Shown piece by piece: positions 653 through 29,544 of a stretch of DNA of 64,000 nt. The DNA is from Carboxylicivirga linearis (GTDB lineage: Bacteria; Bacteroidota; Bacteroidia; Bacteroidales; Marinilabiliaceae): positions 1 through 64,000 of the forward strand of contig NZ_JAGUCO010000024.1 in NCBI RefSeq assembly GCF_018271995.1, read 5' to 3'. Made by a program: the position numbers and the translations under genes. Each line of letters opens with the position of its first letter. The first letter of the stretch is position 1. The notes below the pieces were generated by a model. That model did no database searches, was not told the DNA's origin, and was given only the letters and a program-made list of their open reading frames with translations.

Positions 653-723
653 CAAAGATGAGGCTCTGAGCCCGTTATTTCTTACCCAAAATGGTCAAGC
701 GTTTATCCAAAACAGTCAAGATG
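653..723 (-). promoter_or_regulatory. AraC-type promoter: two 21-bp half-sites plus -7 element
   Basis: Half-sites at 682-702 and 703-723 are near-perfect direct repeats (ACCCAAAATGGTCAAG and ATCCAAAACAGTCAAG). A 21-base spacer leads to CATCTTTG on the - strand (660-653), a match to the Bacteroidota -7 box TAnnTTTG. The start codon at 604 lies about 45 bases downstream. There is no separate -33 TTTG box, which suggests that the promoter depends on an activator. This is the type example of 13 such promoters in the window. Confidence 0.8.
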
Positions 724-773
724 ATTACATTGAATTAAAAGCAATTACACTTTAATTTCGGTCTAACCGTACT

Positions 774-1634
774 TTAGTGTCTGTCTGGTTTATCGTTTTC
801 CCATTTCCCATCAAATAGTACTTTTTTATCTTTATCCAACAGTACACCTTTTCCGTGGCGCAAATCGTTACGCCAATCGCCAATGTATTGTTCTCCACTT
901 TTAAATTGATAAATTCCAAAACCATTCCTTAAGTCATTACTGTATTCGCCCTCATAAACATCACCATTTTGCCACGAGTACTTTCCTTGCCCATTGCGCA
1001 AACTGTTTTTCCAGTTGCCCTCATAAAATCCTTTATTATCAAAAATGGCATATCCAAAACCATGTGCCTTGCCACTCTTTACTTCACCCAAATATTTAAT
1101 ACTTACTCCCTGACCACAATAAATAGTTAAGGTGTCGGTAATATGAATAGAGCTGATACTATCGTTTAATTCATTTACACGCAGCTCAATGTTACTATTA
1201 CAAATCAGTACAGAATCAAACTCGGTTTGTAATACATAAAGGGTAGTTTTTACCTTTTCCAGGCTATCGTTTAGCTCATCTTTGTTTTTATACAATTGGC
1301 GGATAACCTTTCCTCTTTCGCGAATTTTGTTTGATAGCAAACTATTATTCTGATGAGTTTTATTTCGCTCTTCAAAAATAGAATTAGCATGATGGGTATA
1401 AGCTTCATTATTATTGATCTGATCAAGGATAGCAAACTGCTCCAAGGCCAATTCCAGCTCATCGTTGTTTAATAATGAATCGGCTTTTGATTTTATCTTA
1501 TAATAATCAAGCTCTGCTGCTATATCATTTATAAATGTGTTCCTTTCGTTCAGTTCATTTTTGCTTTTAGCAAGCATGGCAACCAAAATAAGCATGGCTA
1601 ATAGCAATACCGATATTATATATTTTTTATTCAT
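774..1634 (-). CDS. Membrane-anchored coiled-coil protein with C-terminal MORN repeats
   Basis: The 286-residue product has an N-terminal hydrophobic segment (about residues 5-22) that could be a signal anchor. A long charged helical region follows (about 25-165, including a hydrophilic coiled coil). The C-terminus (about 180-280) holds four or five MORN repeats, recognisable from recurring YEGxWxNxxRNGxGxY patterns such as FYEGNWKNSLRNGQG. MORN repeats usually mediate membrane-lipid or protein contact; the role here is unknown. The start lies 64 bases after the DUF2490 gene and no operator copy precedes it, so the two genes are probably co-transcribed from the promoter at 2545-2615. Confidence 0.85.
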   Translation of the reverse strand: MNKKYIISVLLLAMLILVAMLAKSKNELNERNTFINDIAAELDYYKIKSKADSLLNNDELELALEQFAILDQINNNEAYTHHANSIFEERNKTHQNNSLLSNKIRERGKVIRQLYKNKDELNDSLEKVKTTLYVLQTEFDSVLICNSNIELRVNELNDSISSIHITDTLTIYCGQGVSIKYLGEVKSGKAHGFGYAIFDNKGFYEGNWKNSLRNGQGKYSWQNGDVYEGEYSNDLRNGFGIYQFKSGEQYIGDWRNDLRHGKGVLLDKDKKVLFDGKWENDKPDRH

Positions 1635-1698
1635 ATCTATTCGTTCATTCGGTTATCAAATTTCTTAAATAGCTTATTGACAATACTGAGGTTTGTAA

Positions 1699-2508
1699 TT
1701 AGTATCCTAAATTAATGCCAGGTAAACGCTTCTCTAACTTGCGGAAGTCGAGACCGATTAATACATTAAAACGTAATATATGGGTTGTTTTATAAGAGGC
1801 TCCATCACTTTTCTGTCCTAAAGTCCACATATGACCGGCAAAAAAAGTAATGTTATTATTAAGCACATAACCAAACCCATTATAGGTTCTGAAATCCTCC
1901 ATTGGATTGGCAACAATAGATTTTCCGGAGTGCATAAAAATTTCGGCACTGGGCGAAAAGTATAAGGTCTTTTCTTTAATAGTTGGTGAATTAATGGGGA
2001 TATATGCAAAAAACTTATAACGGTATCGGTTAGTATAATCGTATTCGGCTCCTACATCATTGTTTCTTTTCCAGCGGTGCTCAAACCTGAACTGATGATA
2101 AAGATTAAACCTTCCCAGATCGGTTGTTTTAAATAACCACTGATGCCATATACGAGGTTCTAATGTAATTTTTTCATACTGATCATTTCCCGGATCGGGA
2201 GTATAATTAACGATTAAGGCAGGACCAATAACAGCTTCAAAATTTTTACTGAAAAAGAAATTGATACCGGCACGATTATAAATTTGTCTGTCCCGGCCAA
2301 TAAATGAAGTTACATTATCGGCTGCATTACGCACCCTGTAGTGATGTTCGGCATAATACCCGATTTTATCGCTTAAACGGGCTTTCAGGTATAATCCGTT
2401 CCATATACCGGTTTCTTCCAGGCTGGCAGTACTGCTACCAGCATCATTAAACTGTGCCTTACTAATAGTACTTGCAAACAGCAAGATAATTGCAATTTTA
2501 TATTTCAT
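1699..2508 (-). CDS. DUF2490 outer-membrane beta-barrel protein
   Basis: I start this gene at the ATG at 2508, which gives 269 residues beginning MKYKIAIILLF with a classical signal peptide ending near SKAQ. A longer in-frame reading would begin at 2565, but that falls among the -7 and spacer bases of the promoter. The body has alternating aromatic/hydrophobic strands and the DUF2490 signature region (WNGLYLKARLSDKIGYYAEH, then RxxYNRAG, then FEHRWKR). DUF2490 proteins are predicted outer-membrane barrels of unknown substrate. It is the first gene of a probable two-gene operon with the MORN protein and is preceded by a 21-bp double operator. Confidence 0.85.
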   Translation of the reverse strand: MKYKIAIILLFASTISKAQFNDAGSSTASLEETGIWNGLYLKARLSDKIGYYAEHHYRVRNAADNVTSFIGRDRQIYNRAGINFFFSKNFEAVIGPALIVNYTPDPGNDQYEKITLEPRIWHQWLFKTTDLGRFNLYHQFRFEHRWKRNNDVGAEYDYTNRYRYKFFAYIPINSPTIKEKTLYFSPSAEIFMHSGKSIVANPMEDFRTYNGFGYVLNNNITFFAGHMWTLGQKSDGASYKTTHILRFNVLIGLDFRKLEKRLPGINLGY

Positions 2509-2544
2509 TGAAATGATGATTAGTTGAGATAAAAATTGAGCTAA

Positions 2545-2615
2545 CAAAGGAAGACAGATCCCCAAGGAGGTACTTATCCAAAATAATCATTCATAAACCC
2601 AATCAGGTCATTAAA
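2545..2615 (-). promoter_or_regulatory. AraC-type promoter of the DUF2490/MORN operon
   Basis: Half-sites lie at 2574-2594 (TATCCAAAATAATCATTC) and 2595-2615 (ACCCAATCAGGTCATT), directly abutting. Exactly 21 bases separate them from TTCCTTTG on the - strand (2552-2545). It has the same geometry as the promoter at 653-723. Confidence 0.75.
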
Positions 2616-2996
2616 TAATTGAATGATTACTTAACATTATTTAAAGCCATAGAAAAGTAAGTGCAAAAGAATTGATGAACATAGCGATAAAAATGTAAGA
2701 TAATGCTGCTTTTTAGTATAATAGCTGCTTAATTAACAACAATGCAACGATAGTGCTAAGTACTCTGATTCTTCTTTACTTTGTGAACTCTTGTATACAA
2801 ATACCAACCAGAAGATCCGATCATTTTTTATTATTTATCGCGCCCCTAACAATAAGGTCCACGGCTGCCTTTGGCATCTGGTTATTATGAAATCATTCAA
2901 TTTACAACCGTCTTTTGCATTAATTACAATTGATACCAACTACAGCAATCAAGTAAACACCATGGCATCAAAACAATAACACATCAATATGCTATT
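2616..2996. other. Gene-free stretch
   Basis: No convincing gene, RNA or repeat is visible in this 381-bp AT-rich stretch. A 62-codon open frame at 2791-2979 has no signal, motif or upstream element to support it. Confidence 0.5.
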
Positions 2997-3891: not shown

Positions 3892-3962
3892 CAAAATTAG
3901 TTTTGAACCGGTTCCGGCACTTTACCATTTTCTTCAAACACATACCCGATGTAGTCAAACTT
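3892..3962 (-). promoter_or_regulatory. AraC-type promoter of the 277-aa barrel gene
   Basis: Half-sites lie at 3921-3941 (TTTACCATTTTCTTCAAAC) and 3942-3962 (ATACCCGATGTAGTCAAAC). The 21-base spacer ends at a perfect TAATTTTG -7 element on the - strand (3899-3892). The leader to the ATG is about 60 bases. Confidence 0.8.
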
Positions 3963-4584
3963 TATGACTATTAGGTATGCATAAAGGTCAATTCAGTTTT
4001 TTTTGAATATCGCAGGTTGTAGGTAACCATGCAACAACAATAATTATTCATATAGTTGAACAAAATTAAGCCAGGTATTTTCGCTTATACTTTTTGTATT
4101 ACTAAGCACTTGTAATTGATCGTTTATATTATCTATTATTACTTACCATCTTGAATAACATAATAAAGGCTAAACGATATGCAATCCCACCGCGATTGTT
4201 AGTGATAAGTCAGGTATATTGATTCTATAAATAGTCAAGCAACCTCAGCAAGGTTGAATATAAATTTAGCCGGTTATTAATAAGTTTTTATGTCAATATT
4301 TTTTTGAGATTCTCAAACTCTACTACCTCCTTTTACACATTCATCTCTAACCCTTTATTGATGGCGCATTTCATAATTTATTTTAGTCACTTTCAGCATA
4401 ACGTTTAATGAATAACATTAACCATAATTTTCTATTATTATCACATTAATGCTTTTAATTTGACCATAAATTAACTACTTTAAATGTGTTTTTTAATACA
4501 TAAAAGTTGCAGACTAAGTATTGATTAAAAATTTTAACAGAAGAGGAAAATGTAAATCATCAAAATAAATTTCATTCAAAAAAA
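3963..4584. other. Gene-free AT-rich stretch
   Basis: I see no gene here. The sequence is AT-rich with scattered homopolymer runs and stops in all frames. It separates the barrel promoter from the phased 21-bp repeat array at 4585-4731. Confidence 0.5.
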
Positions 4585-7027: not shown

Positions 7028-7098
7028 CAAAGATGAGAAAGAAGTAACACTATGATATACCCATATTAAGCAGAAGCTTACCCAAAATAATTTACCCC
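7028..7098 (-). promoter_or_regulatory. AraC-type promoter of serine hydrolase paralog 1
   Basis: Half-sites lie at 7057-7077 (ATACCCATATTAAGCAG) and 7078-7098 (TTACCCAAAATAATTTAC). The 21-base spacer leads to CATCTTTG on the - strand (7035-7028). The distal half-site is the only one that loses the CA at positions 15-16. Confidence 0.65.
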
Positions 7099-7120
7099 TT
7101 AGCCAGTTCTATAAAAATAA

Positions 7121-7184: not shown

Positions 7185-8897
7185 TTATTCAACCTTATAA
7201 ACAACCTCACCGTTTAGCCAGGTAGATAATACTTTAATAGCTGATATCTTCTCTGGATTCACCTTTCTTGGATCTTTTTCCAGTATCACAAAGTCGGCCA
7301 GTTTACCTGCTTCAATAGAACCAATTTCGTGCTCTGACATACATTGCCATGCTGCTTCGCTGGTTAAGGCCCTAATGGCCGATTCTACAGAAACGCTTTC
7401 GTCTGGCGAAATCTTATAATCCGGCTCTTTAAATGTTCTGCGGTTTACTGCAATTTCAATCATCTCGAGCGGATCGGGATTAGTCACCATAAAATCAGAG
7501 TGAAGGGTGTAACTGATATTGTTACATTCGGCCGAATGAGCACGATCTAATAGTTGTACTTTTTCTTCGCCAAAAACCATATCGCGCAACCAAACGCCCC
7601 AATAATGCACATGCCCAATCAAGAAACTGGCTGAAATACCATATTTCTTCATCTTTTCAAATTGTTCATCATGTATGATAGATGCATGCTCAATTCGAAT
7701 GCGCAATGGAGCCACATCAATACCTTGCTCCATCAGGTTTTCAACCGCAGTAATAATATTATCAATAGCTGCATCTCCATTTCCGTGAATGGCTAGCTGC
7801 CAGCCCTCGTTACCTCTTTGTGTGGCAAATTTAGTTAAAGCCTCAACCGAAGTATATTCTTTTCCATAAGTTCCCTGATGCATACCACAGCAATAAGGTT
7901 CGCGTTGCAAACCGGTATATCCCTGGTTAGATCCATCGGCTACCAACTTAAATCCAACTAAGCGTACCATTTCGTTGCCATCGTTGGGCATAATACCTGC
8001 TTCAGTCCATTCATCGTTTTTAAGGTAAGAAGGGTAAGCACGAATACGAGCCGTTAAGTCTGGATTTTGGCCGATAGCCTGAAGCAATTGCCATTCAGCT
8101 GCACCTGAAGTAACACCTAAAGCCAATTCAGTGGTGGTGGTGATACCTTTTGAATTCCAGTCGCTGGTAAGAGCCAATAAGGCTTTAGCAGGATCTAAGG
8201 TCTGTGCTTCAGGCATAGTCATCCAAACTTGTAAAAAGCTGGCCATATTTTTCATCACCCCCGTTAATTCACCATTCTTATCTTTTACAAATTCTGCACC
8301 TTCAGGATTAGTAACGTCGTTGGTAATACCTGCTACTTCAAATGCCTTAGAGTTGGCATATGCCAGGTGACCTGAAGCATTGAGTACAAATATAGGATGC
8401 TCGGTAGATACTGCATCCAGTTCTTTTATGGTTAGTTCTTCGGGACCATCCTGAATAGATGGATCCCAGTTACGGGCCGCAATCCATTGACCAGATTCTT
8501 TCTCAGCAGCTATTTCTTTTAACCGAGCCAACACCTCATCTGTTGTTTTAAAACTGGACATTCCCACATACTCCATTAGATAATCTACCGAAGCACCAGC
8601 CACCACATGAGCATGTGGATCAATAAACCCTGGCAACATCACATTTCCTTGCAGGTCTATTGTTTCTGATTGCTTTCCATATTGTTTTTTAAGCGTACTT
8701 AAATTCCCTACAGCAACTATCTCCTTACCTTGCACTACAACAGCCTCTTCTTCCGAAAATTCAGCATCAACAGTAAGAATGGTTCCTCCATGAAATAATT
8801 TATATTCCTTTGTTTTTTCAGTTGTACAAGTACCCAAAACTAATATGGGAATGAGTGCTATTATAATTGCTTTCAATACTATCTTATATCGCATCAT
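7185..8897 (-). CDS. Lipoprotein amidohydrolase, YtcJ/amidohydrolase_3 family
   Basis: The 570-residue protein belongs to the metal-dependent amidohydrolase superfamily (COG1574, YtcJ-like). Visible metal and active-site motifs are GFIDPHAHV (first HxH), AIHGNGDAAID, RIRIEHAS and LHSDFMVTNPDP, in the family's order, followed by the C-terminal composite-domain signature GKLADFVILEKDP. The N-terminus is a lipoprotein signal with LGTC at the cleavage site, so the enzyme is probably tethered in the periplasm or at the outer membrane. The substrate is unknown; relatives hydrolyse C-N bonds such as N-formyl or N-acyl groups. It lies 96 bases after the BamA-like gene, has no operator of its own and is probably the second gene of that operon. 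Confidence 0.9.
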   Translation of the reverse strand: MMRYKIVLKAIIIALIPILVLGTCTTEKTKEYKLFHGGTILTVDAEFSEEEAVVVQGKEIVAVGNLSTLKKQYGKQSETIDLQGNVMLPGFIDPHAHVVAGASVDYLMEYVGMSSFKTTDEVLARLKEIAAEKESGQWIAARNWDPSIQDGPEELTIKELDAVSTEHPIFVLNASGHLAYANSKAFEVAGITNDVTNPEGAEFVKDKNGELTGVMKNMASFLQVWMTMPEAQTLDPAKALLALTSDWNSKGITTTTELALGVTSGAAEWQLLQAIGQNPDLTARIRAYPSYLKNDEWTEAGIMPNDGNEMVRLVGFKLVADGSNQGYTGLQREPYCCGMHQGTYGKEYTSVEALTKFATQRGNEGWQLAIHGNGDAAIDNIITAVENLMEQGIDVAPLRIRIEHASIIHDEQFEKMKKYGISASFLIGHVHYWGVWLRDMVFGEEKVQLLDRAHSAECNNISYTLHSDFMVTNPDPLEMIEIAVNRRTFKEPDYKISPDESVSVESAIRALTSEAAWQCMSEHEIGSIEAGKLADFVILEKDPRKVNPEKISAIKVLSTWLNGEVVYKVE

Positions 8898-10313: not shown

Positions 10314-10384
10314 CAAAACTAGAGATTGAACAAATGAAAGACATGACCATTTTAACCATACACTTATCCAATTTGCGCATAGTA
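10314..10384 (-). promoter_or_regulatory. AraC-type promoter of the BamA-like/amidohydrolase operon
   Basis: Half-sites lie at 10343-10363 (ATGACCATTTTAACCATAC) and 10364-10384 (TTATCCAATTTGCGCATAG). The 21-base spacer ends at TAGTTTTG, a perfect -7 match on the - strand (10321-10314). The divergent AraC gene starts 117 bases to the right. Confidence 0.75.
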
Positions 10385-10500
10385 TTAAACTGAATTAATA
10401 AGTGGAGAACATTTTACATCGTGTCAAAACAAAAAGCAATAGTTACCCAACTAAAGAAACCTTGATTTGTTTGTAGTATATTTACAAAAAGTACAGAGGT

Positions 10501-11484
10501 ATGGAAAAACAGCAGCCCACTACCCTAAAGTTTAAAGAAGGGTATATTTTAAATTATTATCAGGCGTTTTACGATCGTTTTGGAGGCAAACTGGAGAATG
10601 ATTCCTATCAATTAAATAAAAATGGGATTTATATTGATGGAACCGTTCATGAGATAATAGATGAAGTTCAGCTGTCACTTGTCGATACTCAAATAGCATT
10701 TCCTATACGAATAGATCGCACACCGGATAACAACCCGGAGATGCTGCATCTGGTACTAATCAAAGAAGGAGGCTATTCACAGGCCTATCAAAATCAACTT
10801 GTAAATCTGGAAGCAGATAGTACCAAAGGTGTATTTTTTTATAACGGGCTATTTCCGTTAGCCGCTGATTTTCCTGCTAATGCCTCATACAAATCTATTG
10901 CATTTAAATTCTCTAAAACAGGTCTAAAAAAGATATTACCGGAAGCAACAACACCTATTAACCAATTATTTGGTAATGAAGAAGGAGTTGCCTATCACAT
11001 TCCTTTGCCAACCGAAGTGAATCGTTTGATGGAAGATATCTTTTCATACTCGTTAGACTCATTTGGTTCAAAAGCCATGATAAGAGTGCGTGGGCAAGAA
11101 ATACTAATCACCCTATTGAAGGTAATGATACAAATGGAGCACGATGATTTAAATGGGCTTCATACCCATGATTATCAACGCATCATGATGATTAAAAACC
11201 GTTTATTGTCTTCACTTAACGATACGATTAATGTTGAGGAGATTGCCCATGAATTTGGAGTGAGCGTATCAAAGTTAAACCGCGATTTCAATAGTTTATT
11301 CAATACTTCAATCTATAAGTTTTACACCTATGCCAAAATCGATGAGGCTTATCGTCGCTTAAAAACAGGCAAATACAGTGTGAGCGAAGTGAGCTATGAT
11401 ATGGGCTATACCAACCCGGCCAAATTTTCAAGCATGTTTAAAAAACTAAAAGGCATCCCTCCTGTTAAGGTAATTCCGTTGTAA
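10501..11484 (+). CDS. AraC-family regulator 1
   Basis: The 327-residue protein has a C-terminal AraC/XylS double helix-turn-helix (about residues 230-327). It contains a first HTH (INVEEIAHEFGVSVSKLNRDF) and the second-HTH signature YSVSEVSYDMGYTNPAKFSSMFKK. The N-terminal 220 residues form a sensor-like domain shared by all five paralogs, with the motifs HLVLIKEG, FFYNGLFPL and SIAFKFSK. The layout recalls PchR-type regulators that bind a small ligand. A -7-like TATATTTAC lies at 10477-10485, 16 bases before the ATG. It is divergent from the BamA-like operon and is likely to act on the 21-bp operators around it. Confidence 0.9.
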   Translation: MEKQQPTTLKFKEGYILNYYQAFYDRFGGKLENDSYQLNKNGIYIDGTVHEIIDEVQLSLVDTQIAFPIRIDRTPDNNPEMLHLVLIKEGGYSQAYQNQLVNLEADSTKGVFFYNGLFPLAADFPANASYKSIAFKFSKTGLKKILPEATTPINQLFGNEEGVAYHIPLPTEVNRLMEDIFSYSLDSFGSKAMIRVRGQEILITLLKVMIQMEHDDLNGLHTHDYQRIMMIKNRLLSSLNDTINVEEIAHEFGVSVSKLNRDFNSLFNTSIYKFYTYAKIDEAYRRLKTGKYSVSEVSYDMGYTNPAKFSSMFKKLKGIPPVKVIPL

Positions 11485-11727: not shown

Positions 11728-11750
11728 ATATCTTTGATTTTTACAATCGT

Positions 11751-13088: not shown

Positions 13089-13159
13089 CAAATATAGCGG
13101 AATAAACCCTGCAAGACGTACCAAATAGATTCACTATAACACCCAAAGGAACCAAAAAA
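13089..13159 (-). promoter_or_regulatory. AraC-type promoter of serine hydrolase paralog 2
   Basis: Half-sites lie at 13118-13138 (GTACCAAATAGATTCACT) and 13139-13159 (ACACCCAAAGGAACCAAAA). The 21-base spacer ends at a perfect TATATTTG -7 element on the - strand (13096-13089). The distal half-site runs into the terminator hairpin of the preceding gene at 13156. Confidence 0.75.
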
Positions 13160-13184
13160 GGCCACAACTAACTGTTGCGACCTT
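13156..13184 (-). terminator. Hairpin terminator, copy 1 of a recurring family
   Basis: AAGGCCACAAC pairs imperfectly with GTTGCGACCTT. On the - strand it is followed by six Ts. Similar hairpins (AAGGCCNNCAAC...GTTGCGGCCTT) lie at 19488, 24346 and 27174, always 3' of operons in this cluster. Confidence 0.65.
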
Positions 13185-13508: not shown

Positions 13509-14870
13509 TTATTTCTGCAAAATTTCTAACGCTACCAATGCCGATAATTTTGATCCAAAAGTAATGCCATCAAGGTCTACCTGATAAGTTGGTTCATGTG
13601 GCATAAATGGAAACTCTTTTCCCTCGGCTTGCGCTTCGGCAAATAATTTTGGTTGGGCAGTACCCACAAACAGGTAAGCTCCTTTCACATCTTCCAGTCC
13701 GTCAATAAGTGCAAATGCATCTTCAGACCCGGGAACGCTAATATTATCAACGCGGTGTTTTACAAAACCGGTACGCTCTGTTGCACTTCTAATGGTTGCC
13801 ATTAAGGCTTCGTCGTTGTAGATAGCCGGACCAAAACCACTTTGGGTAATGGTAGGCATCATATCCTCTGATAGACCATTTGCCATGGCAATACCGTTGC
13901 AGATATCATGAATACCTTTAATCATCTTATCCATTACTTCATTGGTTGAGAAGTGTAACTTTAGTTTAAGGTGCGAAGAAGTAGGAATAACATTATGCTC
14001 TACACCGGCCTGTACACTTCCGATAGTTAATACAGCAACCTCTTCCGGATCGGTGTAACGCGACACTACCGTTTGCAACTGTACAATAGCCATACCTGCC
14101 ATCACAACCGGATCTTTGGCATGGTGAGGCGATGAGCCATGACCGCCAATTCCGTGAAAGGTAACATCAATATGTGTTGTACCCGTTGTTAAACGTCCAT
14201 CGGTAGCTAAAAACGAACCTGTTGGAAACGCTGCCGTGTGTTGCGCCAAAAAATAATCGGGCTTTGGTACATTGTATTGGGTATATAAACCGGCATCAAC
14301 CATTGCCTGTGCTCCTTGAACATTTTCTTCGGCAGGCTGTGCAATTAATACCAGTGTTCCACTCCATTTATCTTTCATTTCAACCATGGTATGGGCCAAA
14401 GCAACCACAAAAGTTGTATTGGCATCGTGCCCACAGGCATGCATAACCGGCGACTCATTACCATCCATATCGGTTGCAATTTTTGTACTGGCATATGGCA
14501 AATCGGTTTCTTCCTTTACAGCTAGCGCATCCATATCGCCCCTATACATTAATACCGGTCCATCGCCATTACGAAGAATTGCTGCTACGCCGGTTACACC
14601 TATTCCGGTGTGCACTTCAAAACCCAGTTTTTTAAATTCAGCGGCTACAATACCCGAGGTACGCACTTCCTGAAACGGAAGCTCAGGGTTAGCATGCAAA
14701 TCTTTAAAAATATCTTGTATATACTCAGCGTTATCATCTACAACTTTTTCCATTTGGTTGATTACCTCCTGCGGAAGGGTGCTTTCCTGAGCCATCAAAC
14801 TGCTTCCGGAAAAAACCAATACCATGGTTACCATGGTAAGCGTCAATGCATTTTTTATAATCTTTTTCAT
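13509..14870 (-). CDS. Exported M20D-type amidohydrolase
   Basis: The 453-residue protein has a signal peptide ending near LMAQ and a full M20 metallopeptidase fold. The metal/Cys motif HACGHD is at 144-149 (M20D members use this Cys as a ligand in place of an Asp), the general-base pair Glu-Glu is at 181-182, and the dimerisation domain shows GIGGHGSSPHHAKDP. M20D enzymes such as hippurate and N-acyl-amino-acid hydrolases split an acyl group from an amino acid. Secretion is a notable difference from the cytosolic relatives. The gene is about 200 bases from its predicted promoter at 15085-15156, and the leader contains an inserted palindromic element. Confidence 0.9.
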   Translation of the reverse strand: MKKIIKNALTLTMVTMVLVFSGSSLMAQESTLPQEVINQMEKVVDDNAEYIQDIFKDLHANPELPFQEVRTSGIVAAEFKKLGFEVHTGIGVTGVAAILRNGDGPVLMYRGDMDALAVKEETDLPYASTKIATDMDGNESPVMHACGHDANTTFVVALAHTMVEMKDKWSGTLVLIAQPAEENVQGAQAMVDAGLYTQYNVPKPDYFLAQHTAAFPTGSFLATDGRLTTGTTHIDVTFHGIGGHGSSPHHAKDPVVMAGMAIVQLQTVVSRYTDPEEVAVLTIGSVQAGVEHNVIPTSSHLKLKLHFSTNEVMDKMIKGIHDICNGIAMANGLSEDMMPTITQSGFGPAIYNDEALMATIRSATERTGFVKHRVDNISVPGSEDAFALIDGLEDVKGAYLFVGTAQPKLFAEAQAEGKEFPFMPHEPTYQVDLDGITFGSKLSALVALEILQK

Positions 14871-15175: not shown

Positions 15176-15211
15176 TTGAAGTTAAACCTAGGCCTTGTAA
15201 AGAATTCATTA

Positions 15212-16215: not shown

Positions 16216-17016
16216 TTATTTAGAAAATACAAATGTTGTTGTAAACCTCAATTCGCTTTTACCTAAGTAATCAGGTCGTACCACATTATTGTAATACTGA
16301 ACTCCAAACTGGGTTGGAAGCTTACCTAAAAATACCAGCTTACTTACTCCACCACCAACAGGAACTGTCCATTGCTGTCCACTGTCAGCATTCCAATTGG
16401 CTGTAATAGTTGGATAGGTATTTACCACCCATCCTTTTCCTAAACTGTAGGCAATTAATGTTTGGCTGACAAAACGGTTTACATCAGCTCTTTGATCGTC
16501 TCCGGCAAAAGAGTTCGTCTGACGAAAAACCATGTCCAGCGTCCACTTGTTCTTTTGATATACAGCCACCAAACTGGCACCAGCACTCCACTTACCACTA
16601 CCTAACAGATCATCACTTGCTGTTGGCATATCAATAGATGGCCCAACTCCAAAGGCTAAGTTCCCCAACTTCTTTTTAGGTGCAAAATAGAACGAGTAAT
16701 TTAAATCGGTTGTACCAAAAGTACTCCCATTGCCTAAAGTAGTTGAAGGCAAATGCGTAGTACCAATTACAGCTCGGTGTACCATACTGAAGTTACCATA
16801 TTCAAAGGCCATAACCGGTTGAAATGAGGTGGTATAAGTTGCTCCCTCGTATTGCGGTGTTCCTAATCCAAAGTTATGTTGGATGGGTAACGCTGTAATG
16901 TTCGACAATGGATTTTGTAACTTTTGTGCAATTGCGTCTTGGTCACTTTGTGCATAAACGCCAGAAAAACTTATTAATGCCAATAAGGTAATGGCAATAT
17001 TTTTTAATGTATTCAT
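16216..17016 (-). CDS. Outer-membrane barrel, transporter-like (paralog A)
   Basis: The 266-residue precursor has a signal peptide ending near VYAQ. It begins DAIAQKLQNPLSNITALPIQ and continues with strands typical of the outer-membrane transporter-like family often annotated as neutral-zinc-metallopeptidase-adjacent or MetA-pathway barrels. I do not assign a substrate. It is nearly identical over its length to the protein at 20029 (for example KKKLGNLAFGVGPSIDMPTA in both), so the pair arose by recent duplication. It has no operator of its own and follows the choloylglycine-hydrolase-like gene by 109 bases, with a perfect hairpin between them that may act as a partial terminator. Confidence 0.8.
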   Translation of the reverse strand: MNTLKNIAITLLALISFSGVYAQSDQDAIAQKLQNPLSNITALPIQHNFGLGTPQYEGATYTTSFQPVMAFEYGNFSMVHRAVIGTTHLPSTTLGNGSTFGTTDLNYSFYFAPKKKLGNLAFGVGPSIDMPTASDDLLGSGKWSAGASLVAVYQKNKWTLDMVFRQTNSFAGDDQRADVNRFVSQTLIAYSLGKGWVVNTYPTITANWNADSGQQWTVPVGGGVSKLVFLGKLPTQFGVQYYNNVVRPDYLGKSELRFTTTFVFSK

Positions 17017-17125: not shown

Positions 17126-18244
17126 TTATAAATCAAGCTTTACTTCAATCTTGTCCTGCTCTTTTTTCTCATCTAAAGAGAGGTGGATAATTTCTTTACC
17201 AATTTTTGAAAAATTAATATTTTTCAAGTCAACCATTCTTACACGTCTGTTGTGCTGTGTATGGTAGTTTAATTGTCTGTCCTGTATATTCCAGGCCGTA
17301 GTCCATAACGTTGTTGAGCGCATCGAATCATCGAAAAAATTAGCGCTGGCACCTTCCCCTCCATCAGGGCCCAAAGGAAGGTTGAAGTTATCTAGTATTC
17401 TGAAAACCTCATAAACAGTTTCATCAGCATCATTTGTTTTGCGGGCTGATTGAGACCATGCTACGGCTCTTACAAATCGAGACACAGGTGTATTATCGCC
17501 GGGCATTCCTAAAAACCCCGAACCTGCACCCATCGGGCTAATCGTAATGTCGTTTAATTTCTTAGGACTTTGCGGGTGAGCCGTAAGGTTTACATAGTTA
17601 TTTAAGTTGGTCATGTGCCAGTCGTATTTTGGAGCATTCGTAATAACCCCAAGTGGAGCATCGTGTAGCATTAACTCACCTTCTGAATACTCAATTACTA
17701 AAGATGTACCATTAGCATCTGTAACAATCCAATGCGCACCAACTTCCATTCCGATTGCTTTCTCAATTACACCAACTACCGATATTTCCTGCATACCTTT
17801 TTTCACCTCTTCTACATCTTTAAAGCTTGAAAGAATATAGGTAAGGAGTTCTTGCGATGAGATAGTTTTTGAAGCATCAGCACTATTATACTCCTGAAAT
17901 TTTGCATAATTTGGATGGTAAAACATACCTGCTGCCAAACCGGCTTCATTCATCCCATCACCAAAATAGTCTTTGCCAATTATATCTAATGCTACAAATC
18001 CATACTTTACTTTGTATGCCATACCATTATCACCTTCCGGAGTTAAGCTGCTAAATTTAAATCCCTCTGGAACAACGGCCACTCTTGAGTTAAGATCAAA
18101 AGCTCCCCACTCCATGGTTCTGCCATATACTACTCCACCATCTTCAGCTATTAACCGAATTCCTGTACAAGCATCTGACTTACTTGGTACCAAAAACATT
18201 AGAGCCATTGATAAAACCGCTCCTATTCTACTTAATTTATTCAT
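17126..18244 (-). CDS. Choloylglycine-hydrolase-family (Ntn) amidase, exported
   Basis: The 372-residue precursor has a signal peptide whose predicted cut leaves Cys26 at the new N-terminus (SKSDA-CTGIRL). That matches the N-terminal nucleophile cysteine of the choloylglycine hydrolase/penicillin V acylase family. Other family marks are YGRTMEWG (active-site Arg), TNAPKYDWHMTNLNNY (equivalent of the substrate-site TNxPxFDxQxxNLxNY) and RFVRAVAW. Members hydrolyse bile-salt, penicillin V, N-acyl-homoserine-lactone or N-acyl amides; the substrate here cannot be told from sequence alone. It heads an operon, with a double operator at 18339-18380 shared with the divergent regulator 3 region. Confidence 0.9.
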   Translation of the reverse strand: MNKLSRIGAVLSMALMFLVPSKSDACTGIRLIAEDGGVVYGRTMEWGAFDLNSRVAVVPEGFKFSSLTPEGDNGMAYKVKYGFVALDIIGKDYFGDGMNEAGLAAGMFYHPNYAKFQEYNSADASKTISSQELLTYILSSFKDVEEVKKGMQEISVVGVIEKAIGMEVGAHWIVTDANGTSLVIEYSEGELMLHDAPLGVITNAPKYDWHMTNLNNYVNLTAHPQSPKKLNDITISPMGAGSGFLGMPGDNTPVSRFVRAVAWSQSARKTNDADETVYEVFRILDNFNLPLGPDGGEGASANFFDDSMRSTTLWTTAWNIQDRQLNYHTQHNRRVRMVDLKNINFSKIGKEIIHLSLDEKKEQDKIEVKLDL

Positions 18245-18309: not shown

Positions 18310-18380
18310 CAAATTTAGAGCAACGCAGCACCGATATTTTACCACTTATCGCCAAGTGAATGTCCAATAACGTCAGGCAA
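18310..18380 (-). promoter_or_regulatory. AraC-type promoter of the choloylglycine-hydrolase-like gene
   Basis: Half-sites lie at 18339-18359 (TTACCACTTATCGCCAAG) and 18360-18380 (ATGTCCAATAACGTCAGG). The 21-base spacer ends at a perfect TAAATTTG -7 element on the - strand (18317-18310). Confidence 0.75.
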
Positions 18381-18428
18381 ATAATGTTTGAATTAAAAAA
18401 ACTCAGCACTACCAATAGGTTTCACACA

Positions 18429-18459
18429 TTGTCATCTAGTTTATTAGCCTTATCTTTAG
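18429..18459 (+). promoter_or_regulatory. Promoter of AraC-family regulator 3
   Basis: TTG at 18429-18431, 19 bases, then TATCTTTAG at 18451-18459. The transcript would start near 18465, which rules out the longer upstream reading frame and supports the ATG at 18489. Confidence 0.7.
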
Positions 18460-18488
18460 CAGAACGTCTGATAAATCCTTATATAAAA

Positions 18489-19466
18489 ATGAACAACAAG
18501 ACACTTAACATAAAGGAAGGGGGAAGTGACAACTATTTCAATGGCCTTGAAAAAGCTTTTAATGTTAAGAGAATTGGCAACCGCTTTGACTTTAGAGAAG
18601 GTAAACACCATGTTTCGGTAATAAATTATAAATTATTCGATGATTTTGAAATGATGGTGCACAGCCTTAATGTTAAAGATAACTGGACTTTAGAGCGGAT
18701 ACCTGATGAGCAGCCCGACTTTTACCATTTTGCCCTTATTAGTGAAGGGAGTCTCCGGCAGGATTTTAGTAACGAAGAACATTTAATAGAAGCCGGATCG
18801 AATAAAGGCATGTTTATTTATAATGGCCTATTCCCATTAAAAACACATTTCCCCAATAACACGGAATACAAATCGATCGTATTTAAATTTTCAAAAACCG
18901 CTTTTACTAAAAGCATTCCTGATTCCTTAGGTATTTTGGAATCGCTTTTTGAAGGAAATGAGGCAAAAGCGTATCACACCAGTATCCCTGTGGCATTACA
19001 AAAAGTAATTGAGGATTTATTTTTATACCAGCAAGATAAACTGACTGCCAACATTTTGGTCACATCGAAAGGCCTGGAGTTATTCGCCCTTTTAATTAAA
19101 TCGGTAAAAAAACTATTGGACGATGATGAGTTAAACGGCTTGCATATTGATGACTATAACAGGGTTCTACAGATTAAAGACGAGATTATTAAGCATGTGG
19201 AGGGAAAAATAAACATTGAGGATATTGCCAGTCAATTCGCCATTAGTGTTTCGAAACTACAACGCGATTTTAAAGCATTGTACAACTGTACTGTATACAA
19301 CTTTTTTACACAGGCTAAAATGGACGAAGCCCAACGCAGGTTACGCTCCGGTCAATACTCGGTTACAGAAGTAGGCTACGATCTGGGTTATAGCAGCATC
19401 TCAAAGTTCTCAACCATGTTTAAAAAAATGAAAGGCATTAATCCAAGTGATGTAATTCCGATTTAA
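18489..19466 (+). CDS. AraC-family regulator 3
   Basis: I use the ATG at 18489 (325 residues, MNNKTLNIKEGG). An in-frame extension back to 18360 crosses both an operator half-site and the promoter, and no paralog has it. The C-terminal double HTH shows INIEDIASQFAISVSKLQRD and YSVTEVGYDLGYSSISKFST. The N-terminal sensor-like domain has HFALISEG, MFIYNGLFPL and SIVFKFSK. It is divergent from the choloylglycine-hydrolase-like operon and convergent with the lumazine-binding-like gene across a shared terminator. Confidence 0.9.
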   Translation: MNNKTLNIKEGGSDNYFNGLEKAFNVKRIGNRFDFREGKHHVSVINYKLFDDFEMMVHSLNVKDNWTLERIPDEQPDFYHFALISEGSLRQDFSNEEHLIEAGSNKGMFIYNGLFPLKTHFPNNTEYKSIVFKFSKTAFTKSIPDSLGILESLFEGNEAKAYHTSIPVALQKVIEDLFLYQQDKLTANILVTSKGLELFALLIKSVKKLLDDDELNGLHIDDYNRVLQIKDEIIKHVEGKINIEDIASQFAISVSKLQRDFKALYNCTVYNFFTQAKMDEAQRRLRSGQYSVTEVGYDLGYSSISKFSTMFKKMKGINPSDVIPI

Positions 19467-20910: not shown

Positions 20911-20981
20911 CAAAAATGATATATCTATTCATGAACAAAGGCTCCAAACAGATCAAGCTATGACCTCATTTGGTCAAATTG
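20911..20981 (-). promoter_or_regulatory. AraC-type promoter of barrel paralog B operon
   Basis: Half-sites lie at 20940-20960 (GCTCCAAACAGATCAAGC) and 20961-20981 (TGACCTCATTTGGTCAAAT). The 21-base spacer ends at CATTTTTG on the - strand (20918-20911). Confidence 0.75.
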
Positions 20982-21109
20982 AATTGTAGCTATTGCACAA
21001 CTAAGAATTTACTAGTCGTATTTTAAGTTAGTGGTAGTATTATTTAGGCATAAGTATGGCCGGGAGACAAAGATTATTCAATATCTCCAATACTTATTTT
21101 TTTTAAACT

Positions 21110-22538: not shown

Positions 22539-22609
22539 CAAATATCAGGATTATGGAGGTTACAATCATCTCCGTTTGTACCAACCCAATTCCCAAAGAA
22601 CCCAAAAGC
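22539..22609 (-). promoter_or_regulatory. AraC-type promoter of serine hydrolase paralog 3
   Basis: Half-sites lie at 22568-22588 (ATCTCCGTTTGTACCAAC) and 22589-22609 (ATTCCCAAAGAACCCAAAAG). The 21-base spacer ends at GATATTTG on the - strand (22546-22539). Confidence 0.7.
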
Positions 22610-22670
22610 ATAATTTAAGGCCAAAAATAAAACATAACGGTAGTATTGTATGAGCAAACTATTCAAATAA

Positions 22671-22720: not shown

Positions 22721-23698
22721 TTGGACACAACAATTTTAAAGGTTACTGAAGGCGGAATGAACAACTACTTTAAGGTAGTTGAGGAGGTTTTTGAGCAAAA
22801 GAGAATAAAAAACAGGTTTGAGATACAAAAAGGTTCTAACTATTTTCATCTCTCTTCGCAGCTTATTGCAGCTGATTTTGAACTGGGGGTACTTAGTACC
22901 AACTTCTATAATAATATTGTAGTTGATAGAATTGCAAATGAAAGACCCGACTATTATCATTTTAATATGATTAAAGAGGGTAAAATAATGCAGGACTATG
23001 ATAACGAAGAGAAAACTGCAGAAGCCGGCACTAATAAAGGTGTATTTGTATACAATGGTGGTTTCCCTTTAAAATCAAACATACCAGCCAATCAGGATTA
23101 CAAGGCTATTGTTTTTAAAGTATCAAAACAAGCTATAGCCGAAATAATGCCCGAAGCATTGCCCATTATTGAAACCTTATTTGAAAACGATGAGCCAACT
23201 GCCTATCACACCCAATTACCTATTGAGATGGAAAGGCTTTTGACTGAACTTTATGAATTTAACAGTGGTATTTTTGGCAAAAACACTATGGTATTATCTC
23301 GCGGGCTGGAATTATTTACCATGCTTTTAAATTCCATTAAACAATTATTAGAAAAAGATGAGTTACATGGTTTACACATTGATGACTATAATCGTTTACT
23401 TTTAATTAAAAAGGAAATGTTAGATAATATTGAGGGTAAAATCAATGTTGAAGAAATTGCCAAACAGTTTGCTATCAGCAAATCAAAATTGCAGCGCGAC
23501 TTTAAAACACTATTTGACATTTCAGTCTATCAGTTTTTTGCTCAAGCCAAAATGGATGAAGCCTATCGCCGTCTAAAAACAGGTAAATTTACCGTAATGC
23601 AAGTGGGTTACGATCTTGGATATAATAGCATTCCCAAATTCTCGATCATGTTTAAAAAAAATAAAGGAATTAATCCAAGTGATGTGATACCGGGTTAA
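22721..23698 (+). CDS. AraC-family regulator 4
   Basis: The start is a TTG at 22721 (325 residues). It is preferred because the following DTTILKVTEGGMNNYF aligns directly with the ATG-initiated start of regulator 3, whereas the first ATG (residue 12) would remove conserved residues. The C-terminal double HTH shows INVEEIAKQFAISKSKLQRD and FTVMQVGYDLGYNSIPKFSI. The N-terminal domain has HFNMIKEG and VFVYNGGFPL. It is divergent from serine hydrolase paralog 3. The gene is followed by a composite palindromic element rather than a simple terminator. Confidence 0.9.
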   Translation: MDTTILKVTEGGMNNYFKVVEEVFEQKRIKNRFEIQKGSNYFHLSSQLIAADFELGVLSTNFYNNIVVDRIANERPDYYHFNMIKEGKIMQDYDNEEKTAEAGTNKGVFVYNGGFPLKSNIPANQDYKAIVFKVSKQAIAEIMPEALPIIETLFENDEPTAYHTQLPIEMERLLTELYEFNSGIFGKNTMVLSRGLELFTMLLNSIKQLLEKDELHGLHIDDYNRLLLIKKEMLDNIEGKINVEEIAKQFAISKSKLQRDFKTLFDISVYQFFAQAKMDEAYRRLKTGKFTVMQVGYDLGYNSIPKFSIMFKKNKGINPSDVIPG

Positions 23699-24402: not shown

Positions 24403-24858
24403 TTAATCACCCACGGTGTAATAAATCTTATTTACGATTTTCCATCCTTCGGGGAATTTATACAGTTGCATATAATCGATGTAAACCGACTTTCCTTCGA
24501 GGATGTAATCCATTTTTAGGGTGGCCGCATATTTACTTACATCGATACTTAAAAACTCAACGCTTACCTGTTTTCCTTCGGGGCGAGGCAGTACACCTTT
24601 ATCGATGTTGTTTTTTACCCGTTGTTTAAATTCGTCGAGCGACACGTTTGACAGGCTTCCGTCCTTTTCCAACACCTGCATCCGAAAATCGGGATGAAAA
24701 CCGGCATCGATCAAGTCCATATTACCAATATTTTGAACGCCATTGAGATAAGCTGTTTCAATTACCTTTTTTATGGCTTCAACTTCTTTCTTATCCGATT
24801 GCGCAGAGGCCCATAAGCCTGTTAGTGCAATAACTAGTGATAAAACAAGTTTCTTCAT
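24403..24858 (-). CDS. Small exported NTF2/lumazine-binding-like protein (paralog b)
   Basis: I start at the ATG at 24858, giving 151 residues, the same length as paralog a. An ATG nine bases upstream is possible, but the TGACATGAA context of the chosen start is shared by both copies. A signal peptide ends near WASAQ; unlike paralog a there is no lipobox cysteine, so this copy is probably soluble in the periplasm or secreted. The mature parts are very alike (AGFHPDFRMQVLEKDG and MQLYKFPEGWKIVNKIYYTV). It is the second gene after the esterase (54-base gap to its own upstream ATG) and shares that promoter. Confidence 0.82.
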   Translation of the reverse strand: MKKLVLSLVIALTGLWASAQSDKKEVEAIKKVIETAYLNGVQNIGNMDLIDAGFHPDFRMQVLEKDGSLSNVSLDEFKQRVKNNIDKGVLPRPEGKQVSVEFLSIDVSKYAATLKMDYILEGKSVYIDYMQLYKFPEGWKIVNKIYYTVGD

Positions 24859-24921
24859 GTCATTCATTTTTAATTAGGCCAGCCTGCACTAAAGTAGTAC
24901 AGGCTTAGCTTTTTTAAATGC

Positions 24922-25970: not shown

Positions 25971-26041
25971 CAAATATCATTTAAGATTTGTAAGAGTCCA
26001 GTCCCAATTCTATCAACCCTCAACCCTTTTGCAGCATTTAA
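25971..26041 (-). promoter_or_regulatory. AraC-type promoter of the esterase operon
   Basis: Half-sites lie at 26000-26020 (AGTCCCAATTCTATCAACC) and 26021-26041 (CAACCCTTTTGCAGCATTT). The 21-base spacer ends at GATATTTG on the - strand (25978-25971). Confidence 0.75.
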
Positions 26042-26136
26042 CAAGTAATCAAAACAAAATGAGTACTACTTCAAAGTCGTTTTGTTCTTTATTAACAAAG
26101 GATTTCGATTAACTTTAAAGCCAGAACTTGACACCA

Positions 26137-27123
26137 ATGAAAACACAAGATCCTTTATACATAAAGATAAAAGAAGGTGATATTCAAACCTATTTAAGAG
26201 CTTTTGAAGAAAGTTTTAAAGCCGAAGTAAAAGATAAACGACTCATATATAAAAGAGGTAATAGCGAATGGAAAATTACTGCCTACTCTTATTTCCCTGA
26301 GTTTGAGTTTATGGTTGTACAGGGAAACTACGATTATAACATCGTTATTGACAGAACTCCGGACGAAATACCCGATTATTATCACATTAATATTGTGAAA
26401 GAAGGAAAAGTGGTGCAGGATTACAATAATGAACAACAATTGATGGAGGCTGGTTCTCCTCAAGGTATTTTTATATATAATGGATTATTTCCATTAAAAT
26501 CAGAATTTCATGCCAATCATCAGCATCAATCTGTATCGTTTAAACTGTACAGAAAGGGACTTCAGGAATTAATGCCCGAAGCCGTGGATATTTTTGATAA
26601 ATTATTCGAAAACGATGAAGCAAAAGGCTATCATCTGCATTTAACAACTGAGATGGATCGTCTGTTATTTGATCTCTTACATTACGATAATAGCGATTCG
26701 GGTAGAATTTTATTGGTGCATGCCAAAGCGTTTGAATTATTTACGACTCTAATGCAATCGGTTCAGAAGTTATTGAATAAAGATGAATTACACGGACTAC
26801 ATGTTGATGATTACAATCGCTTAATGATAATCAAAGACAAAGTAATCCAAAGCGTTGAGTCCAAAATCAATCTGGAAGATTTGGCCAATGAATTTGCTGT
26901 AAGTGTATCAAAGCTTCAGCGCGATTTTAAAGCTTTGTTCAACTGCTCGGTTTACCAGTTTTATACCCATGCCAAAATGGATGAAGCCTATCGACGCTTA
27001 AAAACCGGCCAGTATACAGTAATGGAAGTAGGTTTTGACATGGGATATAACAGCGTATCGAAATTCTCGCTGATGTTTAAAAAAGTAAAAGGTGTTAATC
27101 CCAAAGAAGTAATTCCCGGATAA
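26137..27123 (+). CDS. AraC-family regulator 5
   Basis: I use the ATG at 26137 (328 residues, MKTQDPLYIKIKEG). A TTG nine bases upstream is too near the -7-like TAACTTTA at 26110-26117. The C-terminal double HTH shows INLEDLANEFAVSVSKLQRD and YTVMEVGFDMGYNSVSKFSL. The N-terminal sensor-like domain has HINIVKEG, IFIYNGLFPL and SVSFKLYR. It is divergent from the esterase operon and convergent with the second BamA-like gene. Confidence 0.9.
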   Translation: MKTQDPLYIKIKEGDIQTYLRAFEESFKAEVKDKRLIYKRGNSEWKITAYSYFPEFEFMVVQGNYDYNIVIDRTPDEIPDYYHINIVKEGKVVQDYNNEQQLMEAGSPQGIFIYNGLFPLKSEFHANHQHQSVSFKLYRKGLQELMPEAVDIFDKLFENDEAKGYHLHLTTEMDRLLFDLLHYDNSDSGRILLVHAKAFELFTTLMQSVQKLLNKDELHGLHVDDYNRLMIIKDKVIQSVESKINLEDLANEFAVSVSKLQRDFKALFNCSVYQFYTHAKMDEAYRRLKTGQYTVMEVGFDMGYNSVSKFSLMFKKVKGVNPKEVIPG

Positions 27124-28520: not shown

Positions 28521-28567
28521 GATTGATTTATTTATTAATTGTTTGTTTTTCAAAAATTATTCTGATA

Positions 28568-28638
28568 CAAATATCCATGATTCCACTATGATCTTTTACT
28601 CCAAAAATGTCATCAGGTATCCCAAAACTGTCAAACCG
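28568..28638 (-). promoter_or_regulatory. AraC-type promoter of BamA-like paralog 2
   Basis: Half-sites lie at 28597-28617 (ACTCCAAAAATGTCATC) and 28618-28638 (ATCCCAAAACTGTCAAAC), a clear direct repeat. The 21-base spacer ends at GATATTTG on the - strand (28575-28568). Confidence 0.8.
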
Positions 28639-28724
28639 AAATATGTAGCACTCTAAAATCCAGCAGAAATATTAACTAATCGTAACCCTGTTAAAGGATT
28701 CACTAGGAATGAAGACCAGAAACT

Positions 28725-29444
28725 TTAAAAATTGTAGTAAAAACCAATTCCACCATAGGCTTTAAATAAAACCTGATGTCTCACACGGTTGGTATAAAAG
28801 GCATTTAATCCACTCCTACTACCTAATTTATATCCTGCATCTACTCGTGCATATATTACAAATGCATCCTGATTAAAAACAGCACGATTATCTAAACTGA
28901 AAGCTGCCGACCACTTATCTGAAGTAAATCCAAACTTCGGTTCGAAGCGAAGTAAAATGGGAGGCTCGGGCCACTCTCCTGTATTAGCTAGCGGAAAGTT
29001 ATAACGCCATTTGTTGCTGATATAAAAACGTTGATCTTTTAACAACCATTTATATTGCACCGCCGGTTCCAATAGCCAATGACCAAAAATAGCTGCATTT
29101 GCCGGATCACCTGTTGGCATAACCAATTTTACAATAGGCGACCATCCTTGCCAGCCACTTGAACCAACTTTTGATGAAGCATAGCTGCGCGAATAGGTAA
29201 TACTGAAATCGCCAGGAGTCCAATCTGTAATTCCGTCTCGTGTATAATATGCCCCAATCACTTCAAGGTTTATTGCATCGCGAGAACTTAAAGCTATTCG
29301 CCCGTTGGTTACCCAATGCAATGCTTTTTCTCCTCCATTAAACTCATAAGCCTCCATATTAGAATGGACCCGTGTAAGCTTTATCTGAGAGTTTGCAACG
29401 AAAGGAATTATTAATAGCGAAAGTAATAGGACTAACGTTTTCAT
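28725..29444 (-). CDS. Exported outer-membrane barrel, 239 aa, unknown substrate
   Basis: The 239-residue precursor has a signal peptide ending near ANSQ. Strand-like segments rich in Trp, Tyr and Phe follow, ending with KAYGGIGFYYNF, a typical barrel C-terminus with a final aromatic residue. The internal segment PIVKLVMPTGDPANAAIFGHW resembles outer-membrane transporter-like barrels, but I cannot name a family with confidence. It is the last gene of the AraC-linked cluster, is monocistronic, and has a double operator at 29503-29544 with a one-base-longer spacer. Confidence 0.75.
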   Translation of the reverse strand: MKTLVLLLSLLIIPFVANSQIKLTRVHSNMEAYEFNGGEKALHWVTNGRIALSSRDAINLEVIGAYYTRDGITDWTPGDFSITYSRSYASSKVGSSGWQGWSPIVKLVMPTGDPANAAIFGHWLLEPAVQYKWLLKDQRFYISNKWRYNFPLANTGEWPEPPILLRFEPKFGFTSDKWSAAFSLDNRAVFNQDAFVIYARVDAGYKLGSRSGLNAFYTNRVRHQVLFKAYGGIGFYYNF

Positions 29445-29472
29445 TATTTAATCAGGTTTGAAAAATTTGTCA

Positions 29473-29544
29473 CAAAATTACTTTGGCCATCATTTATGAA
29501 TAGCACCTAATCATGTCATATAATATCCCAAAAAGATCAATAAA
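29473..29544 (-). promoter_or_regulatory. AraC-type promoter of the 239-aa barrel gene
   Basis: Half-sites lie at 29503-29523 (GCACCTAATCATGTCATAT) and 29524-29544 (ATCCCAAAAAGATCAATA). A 22-base spacer leads to a perfect TAATTTTG -7 element on the - strand (29480-29473). Confidence 0.7.

Follow-up and report, generated by a model that had tools for sequence, protein, structure and literature searches.

The first 64,000 nucleotides of contig NZ_JAGUCO010000024.1 of Carboxylicivirga linearis (assembly GCF_018271995.1; hereafter the window) contain a gene cluster, encoding exported enzymes and proteins of the outer membrane, that is very probably switched by AraC-type regulators reading one doubled 21-base site, and the same predicted site also precedes genes of small surface-type lipoproteins at other places in these genomes. 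Taken as a whole, the proposed mechanism, in which thirteen minus-strand sites would be the operators of one subfamily of one-component AraC regulators, is given a probability of about 0.86 on the strength of sequence comparison. A preliminary description of this DNA had named AraC paralogs as the readers of the site, marking the match as inference; their candidacy is strengthened by the exclusivity of the site, its co-occurrence with the subfamily, its divergent placement relative to AraC genes and the covariation of its boxes with the DNA-binding helices.

Shared geometry of thirteen promoters

The central observation of the preliminary description, thirteen minus-strand promoters with one doubled 21-bp geometry, holds for all thirteen. 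Read on the minus strand, each consists of a half-site of the variable form TTGAC-N4-TTGGGW (boxes A and B), repeated at 21 bp and followed by an octamer ending in TTTG, which is separated from the end of half-site 2 by 23 bp at eleven sites and by 24 bp at those at 15115 and 29503. The repeat had been placed correctly; the half-site boundary had been set about 2 bp too near the promoter, hence the spacers of 21 or 22 bases reported earlier instead of 23 or 24. Information content in the thirteen-site alignment is highest at the TG of box A and the GG of box B. The sites are listed below with their scores under R1, a sequence-only model built from these thirteen, and in two cases under R2, a wider, family-wide model whose training set includes the sites at 25971, 15085 and 682.

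Operator-promoter 1: 653..727, minus; before the 60-aa lipoprotein gene 422-604; R1 33.8 bits, the genome's best R1 match
Operator-promoter 2: 2545..2619, minus; before the DUF2490 protein gene 1699-2508; R1 31.2 bits
Operator-promoter 3: 3892..3966, minus; before an exported protein gene 2997-3830 (no Pfam match); R1 32.3 bits
Operator-promoter 4: 7028..7102, minus; before an exported beta-lactamase-family hydrolase gene 5680-6999; R1 27.1 bits
Operator-promoter 5: 10314..10388, minus; divergent from the AraC gene at 10501, before an Omp85-like gene 8994-10283; R1 32.1 bits
Operator-promoter 6: 13089..13163, minus; before a beta-lactamase-family hydrolase gene 11751-13049; R1 29.0 bits, weakest in the leave-one-out test
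Operator-promoter 7: 15085..15160, minus; 24-bp spacer, divergent from the AraC gene at 15176, with a leader of 214 bp to the ATG of the M20 hydrolase gene 13509-14870; R1 19.3 bits (the weakest), R2 14.4
Operator-promoter 8: 18310..18384, minus; divergent from the AraC gene at 18360, before a choloylglycine-hydrolase-family gene 17126-18244; R1 24.4 bits
Operator-promoter 9: 20911..20985, minus; before 20029-20826, with a lumazine-binding-like gene 19552-20007 next; R1 29.7 bits
Operator-promoter 10: 22539..22613, minus; divergent from the AraC gene at 22721, before a beta-lactamase-family hydrolase gene 21144-22454; R1 27.7 bits
Operator-promoter 11: 25971..26045, minus; divergent from the AraC gene at 26128, before an alpha/beta hydrolase gene 24922-25932; R1 22.7 bits, R2 15.5
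Operator-promoter 12: 28568..28642, minus; before an Omp85-like paralog gene 27234-28520; R1 28.4 bits
Operator-promoter 13: 29473..29548, minus; 24-bp spacer, before an exported protein gene 28725-29444 (no Pfam match); R1 25.6 bits

With a leave-one-out matrix, 12 of the 13 sites score higher than any non-site position on either strand of the window, the weakest being that at 13118, above which three non-site positions score. This test is partly circular, the sites having been picked in the preliminary description, and it was not relied on alone but joined by independent ones. Across the thirteen promoters, mean pairwise identity is 0.70 in the boxes, which were defined from the motif, and 0.28, approximately chance, in the linkers. 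It is hardly credible, in the light of such figures, that the promoters are alike merely through joint duplication of genes with their upstream DNA, the repeat having no regulatory role. Target paralogs are indeed present (an Omp85-like pair 81% identical, a barrel-like pair 87%, a lumazine-binding-like pair 68%, and three beta-lactamase-family proteins 30-56%), yet in the promoters of four paralog pairs the boxes, again as defined from the motif, are 0.67 identical while the linkers, at 0.20-0.33, are near chance; the DNA similarity of the Omp85 pair spans the gene start and excludes the operator; and the boxes precede unrelated families in other genera as well as orphan lipoproteins.

Additionally, 50 loci around AraC relatives were collected, of which L180-L184, similar in the helix-turn-helix (HTH) region only, were left out of the cmsearch and matrix scans, leaving 45. 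When half-sites at the loci external to the window were scored singly on the strand opposite AraC, 63 pairs lay 21 bp apart, compared with 4 at 20 bp and 9 at 22 bp; a second pairing peak at 9 bp (40 on the opposite strand, 22 on the AraC strand) arises from the TTG..TTG distance inside a single half-site. TTTG lay 27 bases past half-site 2 in 50 cases, 26 in five and 28 in one. Since the 21-bp phase and the TTTG offset emerge without being imposed, they support the geometry independently, and the arrangement is that of an AraC-type direct repeat, with same-orientation half-sites about 21 bp apart adjoining the polymerase site.

Association with one AraC subfamily

Five AraC paralogs lie among these genes, as had been described:

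AraC paralog A: 10501..11484, plus
AraC paralog B: 15176..16204, plus
AraC paralog C: 18360..19466, plus; conserved part from about 18495, operator-promoter 8 overlapping the listed start of the open reading frame (ORF)
AraC paralog D: 22721..23698, plus; structure predicted (model m229e24f95484)
AraC paralog E: 26128..27123, plus

They are exactly the full-length members of the subfamily in the genome (the query and four others at 43-53% identity), all inside the cluster; the other 23 AraC matches in the genome are largely limited to the DNA-binding domain. As in AraC/XylS proteins, a C-terminal two-HTH DNA-binding domain is joined to an N-terminal cupin-type ligand or dimerisation domain in a one-component regulator, and the model of paralog D resembles AraC-family structures in both domains. 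With 325-368 aa and no kinase or receiver match (Pfam, E 0.001), the five proteins do not have the architecture of an AraC-type hybrid two-component system (HTCS), in which a periplasmic sensor, a histidine kinase and a receiver are joined to the AraC domain.

Scans of the whole genome and of related genomes, as proposed in the preliminary description, favour the motif. Over the 6.05-Mb genome, where 150 of 10505 first-look candidates were scored with R1, 14 of those scored had E<0.01, namely the thirteen training sites and one untrained site on another contig (C137:130765-130836, 29.2 bits), the next among them being a partial match of 17.2 bits. No further trans targets are claimed in this genome, in which scores beyond the thirteen and C137 are at most 17.2 bits with R1 and 17.8 with R2. 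Under R2, 11 of the 13 window sites stand clear, and those at 25971 (15.5 bits) and 15085 (14.4 bits) sink into the background although the model was trained on them. Among 60 genomes, 37 R1 matches of at least 20 bits passed strict filters, 36 of them in 14 AraC-bearing genomes (13 in this genome, 12 being training sites, and 23 in the other 13 genomes) and one in the 46 genomes without AraC. Any R1 match at E<=0.05 was obtained in 11 of the 14 AraC-bearing versus 10 of the 46 AraC-lacking genomes, in the latter at 15.8-20.4 bits and mostly as partial matches.

The matrix scan of the 45 loci gave 76 distinct sites scoring >14, compared with 0-8 for 30 column-permuted matrices. The strand opposite AraC carries 73 of the 76 (binomial p 2e-18) and 62 of 66 cmsearch matches, with the qualification that many of the loci come from one genus and the matches are not fully independent. 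Outside the window, 25 of 42 loci have a site scoring >14 within 450 bp upstream and pointing away from AraC; a geometry-only look at the remaining 17 gave diverged candidates at L137 and L175 and nothing convincing elsewhere. With a wider matrix, a site scoring >10 lies within 550 bp upstream of 34 of the 45 AraC genes (20 of the 34 being training sites of that matrix), and L180-L184 contain no R1 match at E up to 1. The subfamily was found in Carboxylicivirga, Saccharicrinis, Labilibacter, Draconibacterium, Maribellus, Tamlana, Flammeovirga and Lutibacter, each of which has sites at one or more loci.

Two irregular frames may be recorded separately. At L177:8001-8321 (G009:C45:226829-227146), a frame of about 150 aa matches the AraC DNA-binding domain only, with an operator immediately ahead of it on the opposite strand, and could be a remnant or a domain-only regulator. 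The AraC-like frame of L150 (Tamlana) has one in-frame stop in the matched stretch; the divergent operator and a hydrolase gene are present.

Covariation of boxes and helices

Nine simple and six partial Mantel tests were applied to 31 AraC-operator pairs, that is, the 45 minus 11 with a site score <10 and three near-duplicates; the AraC alignment leaves out L150 (in-frame stop), L152 and the fragments L171, L177 and L179. Distances in HTH1 correlate with those in box A (r=0.35, p=0.0014; 0.29, p=0.0066 when conditioned on N-domain distance) and distances in HTH2 with those in box B (r=0.28, p=0.0026; 0.24, p=0.0114), and the crossed comparisons on the same pairs gave p=0.23 for HTH1 with box B and p=0.68 for HTH2 with box A. 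This pattern implies an orientation of the protein with HTH1 upstream and HTH2 adjoining the promoter. In L155, L156, L158 and L159, NFS replaces KFS in HTH2, and box B of the best sites, which are weak (11-20 bits), has no GG doublet. A swap of GAC to GTC tied to an SPTKL helix is not claimed, GTC being present too in half-sites at L169, L170 and L178, whose AraC helix is an ordinary one.

The covariation bears directly on the proposal that some other regulator, for instance an HTCS, owns the operator and the AraC paralogs are bystanders. The genome does encode long AraC-domain proteins of >900 aa, and the HTCS motifs of Bacteroides thetaiotaomicron, in the part of PMC3878776 that treats them, are direct repeats averaging 21 bp apart. 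Against this stand the occurrence of the site, which tracks the present AraC subfamily, its variation, which tracks the two HTHs box by box, and its position beside these AraC genes across genera, which together make another owner very unlikely.

Several observations nevertheless weigh against assigning the operator to these regulators. By R1 score, most of the window sites next to an AraC gene are not among the best matches; three of the 14 AraC-bearing genomes (G007, G032 and G034) have no R1 match at E<=0.05, the matrix finding sites in G007; and for 11 of the 45 AraC genes the 550 bp upstream contain no site scoring >10. Furthermore, N-domain distance is itself correlated with box A, box B and the linker DNA (p 0.0002-0.001); common descent contributes to the covariation, and few clades drive the signal. 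With AraC proteins kept as the probable readers, it is plausible that the five regulators share one regulon, in which case their specificities would overlap.

Promoter logic and proposed mechanism

In Flavobacterium psychrophilum, the promoter element TAnnTTTG lies at -12 to -5, as given in the relevant part of PMC9723704, which together with the 23-bp spacer places the end of half-site 2 at -36. Of 71 sites, 69 end in TTTG, the first four octamer bases being most commonly CATC and GATA, so that the TA part is relaxed relative to TAnnTTTG. TTG is frequent at the four box positions and nearly absent where a -33 box would lie, with at most one TTG in the 71 sites at any offset from -24 to -17 counted back from the octamer, which bears out the earlier statement that a separate -33 box is missing. 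The promoters look like ones that need an activator touching the polymerase, and the layout of the sites suggests activation.

In the proposed mechanism, one monomer, comprising a cupin-type N-domain and a two-HTH domain, would occupy each 21-bp half-site, HTH1 contacting the TTGAC box on its upstream side and HTH2 the TTGGGW box on its downstream side. The two bound monomers would follow each other head-to-tail along the same face of the helix, and the second would reach to about -36, the position otherwise taken by a -33 box; this would be the place for an activator contacting RNA polymerase at a TAnnTTTG-type promoter. The AraC protein, probably with a ligand, would thereby turn on neighbouring genes and a few distant ones encoding exported hydrolases, outer-membrane proteins and small lipoproteins, with binding, activation and ligand all being predictions from sequence.

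A different division of labour, with AraC acting as a repressor of the targets or chiefly as the regulator of its own divergent gene through these sites, would agree with the operator lying between both genes: among the 25 loci with a site, 21 have the TTTG end 127-212 bp from the start of the AraC match. Against it, the core promoter is left free by a site that stops at about -36, and the missing -33 box suggests a need for an activator; moreover, just 3 of the 76 sites point along AraC, for which reason autoregulation through such sites was dropped as a general rule, and many sites lie at genes with no adjacent AraC. Repression or self-control as the main function is considered unlikely, and activation of the targets remains the preferred reading.

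Predicted target genes

Counting minus-strand ORFs of at least 120 aa between 0.4 and 29.5 kb (n=17), 12 lie directly behind a site and five would be second genes, the thirteenth direct gene being the 60-aa ORF 422-604; by position, the earlier claim that nearly every minus-strand gene of this interval may be served directly or as a second gene is thus borne out. The candidate targets comprise three beta-lactamase-family hydrolases, a choloylglycine-hydrolase-family enzyme, an M20 amidohydrolase, an amidohydrolase, an alpha/beta hydrolase, two Omp85-like proteins, lumazine-binding-like proteins, a DUF2490 protein and the 60-aa lipoprotein, together with several exported proteins with no Pfam match. 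Further details are as follows:

422..604, minus: 60-aa lipoprotein with a signal peptide, lipobox Cys, SSDSD and a proline-rich tail; no Pfam match
774..1634, minus: MORN-repeat protein (286 aa, PF02493), possible second gene behind the DUF2490 gene of operator-promoter 2
7185..8897, minus: amidohydrolase, following Omp85-like 8994-10283 behind operator-promoter 5
13509..14870, minus: M20-family amidohydrolase, exported
16216..17016, minus: follows 17126-18244 behind operator-promoter 8
17126..18244, minus: choloylglycine-hydrolase-family (CBAH) enzyme, exported; its scores fall short of the NCBIfam thresholds both for bile salt hydrolase and for penicillin V amidase
24403..24867, minus: follows the alpha/beta hydrolase 24922-25932 behind operator-promoter 11

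Relatives of the second genes in the window (amidohydrolase, 16216-type and lumazine-binding-like) have a site of their own elsewhere (L140, L143, L137 and L177). Predicted targets in other genera include sulfatases, an alkyl-sulfatase-like enzyme, DUF3604 proteins, alpha/beta hydrolases and a TonB receptor, and one is a TetR-type regulator (L137). As to enrichment before genes of exported proteins, a check suggested in the preliminary description, a home-made and lenient signal-peptide rule is passed by 67 of 71 first ORFs versus 161 of 401 controls; two of the four misses (L118 and L135) look exported by eye. The theme of the regulon would be an extracytoplasmic cleavage of amide, ester and sulfate bonds by hydrolysis.

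Small proline-rich lipoproteins

The two strongest R2 sites of the genome are that on C137 (39.3 bits), outside the training set, and that at 682 (36.9 bits), inside it, and the C137 site precedes a proline-rich lipoprotein of 63 aa. Fourteen such lipoproteins could be aligned, all of 52-64 aa with one exception of 96, and their mature sequences start with, for example, CSSDDKY or CGSDDKY. These starts resemble, and are not equal to, the known lipoprotein export signals, in which the lipobox Cys precedes a polar residue and then acidic ones, SDDDD in B. fragilis and SDDFE in F. johnsoniae according to the relevant passage of PMC5080379. Within the genus, the lipoprotein is found at E<1e-15 in 12 of the 12 genomes with this AraC, and in G005 and G006, of the same genus and without it, the search gave a best E of 0.006; this co-occurrence is partly circular, nine of the 12 genomes having fed the search alignment via the operator and only G004, G009 and G011 being independent.

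An upstream-site test covered 28 lipoprotein genes picked from the homologue list, including the already-seen L190-L192, with a threshold of 4.3, the 99th percentile of a null drawn from loci containing real sites. Fifteen of the 28 have an upstream site above it, one of them (L192) in the training set of the matrix; the 13 others comprise ten of a sibling type, two tandem second copies and one near a contig end. On contigs with no listed AraC gene, lipoprotein copies have sites scoring 40.3 (G009:C100), 42.6 (G011:C11), 27.4 (G013:C103) and 19.4 (G002:C33), all with 42-44 bases from TTTG to ATG, and 35.2 at G007:C98, with 145 bases; those of G009, G011, G007 and G013 had been identified by their protein alone. 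G007 has one AraC gene and sites at two loci. One AraC thus appears to serve several loci.

The sibling small lipoproteins (L193, L195 and L198-L202, in G003, G004, G007, G008 and G013) have PQPEQPVQP-type tails; none of these ten genes has an operator upstream, and in three loci there are two neighbouring copies. Unusually rapid tail evolution of the trans lipoprotein between G000 and G001 was considered and is unproved, the flanking DNA being only 75-86% identical.

On a speculative and rather unlikely view, the AraC genes and small lipoproteins would form a lipopeptide-based response or signalling system, with the strongest target being a surface-type, proline-rich lipoprotein of 52-65 aa with a variable tail, encoded at several scattered loci, and with the five paralogs, diverged in their N-domains and similar in their helices, feeding different cues into one operator class.

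Evolution of the locus

In the close relative G001, large blocks are 94.8-97.9% identical to the present sequence. The window stretch 11458-19208 (about 7.7 kb), which holds AraC and target genes, has no collinear counterpart there (L116), only diverged or paralogous matches, and the flanking alignment edges overlap inside AraC coding DNA. This suggests that recombination between AraC paralogs may have removed or added regulator-target units.

Significance and relation to known systems

These predictions provide a Bacteroidota AraC subfamily with an operator whose boxes are assigned to helices, with a promoter geometry that is fixed and with a putative regulon. They also bring to light a family of lipoproteins of very small size, whose genes ordinary annotation may miss, and five paralogous regulators beside one operator class offer a case for studying whether paralogs in the same cell avoid crosstalk or exploit it. 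Searches of open-licence literature brought up neither this subfamily nor its operator, and neither the hydrolase regulon nor the link to lipoproteins.

At araI1-araI2 in Escherichia coli, AraC binds two half-sites arranged head-to-tail at a spacing of about 21 bp, of which the second reaches the -35 region; the sequence there is different, the promoter is of the sigma-70 type and looping from a distant site is involved. At the level of structure, the model of paralog D shares 12-18% identity with ToxT, Rns, CsvR and CuxR, at an rmsd of about 15-17 A with both domains aligned, and this comparison of the overall fold implies no fatty-acid binding.

Nearer relatives in layout are found in Bacteroides. 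RhaR, as presented in the pertinent part of PMC3870299, is likewise an AraC-family regulator with a direct repeat of 21-bp periodicity; it governs rhamnose catabolism, and the comparison made here is one of family and periodicity. The HTCS of Bacteroides, in the sections of PMC3878776 concerned with their motifs, share with the arrangement proposed here direct repeats averaging 21 bp apart, equal to two helical turns, a placement of dimers along one DNA face and targets in neighbouring loci, and for HTCS paralog pairs one joint motif and regulon was proposed in the same sections. They differ in being hybrid two-component proteins of polysaccharide loci, whereas here one-component AraC proteins, in five paralogs, would act on hydrolases, outer-membrane proteins and lipoproteins from an operator whose distance to the -7 octamer is fixed at 23 bp. 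The direct-repeat geometry of about 21 bp is, to judge from these parts of PMC3878776 and PMC3870299, already known for AraC-type regulators of Bacteroides.

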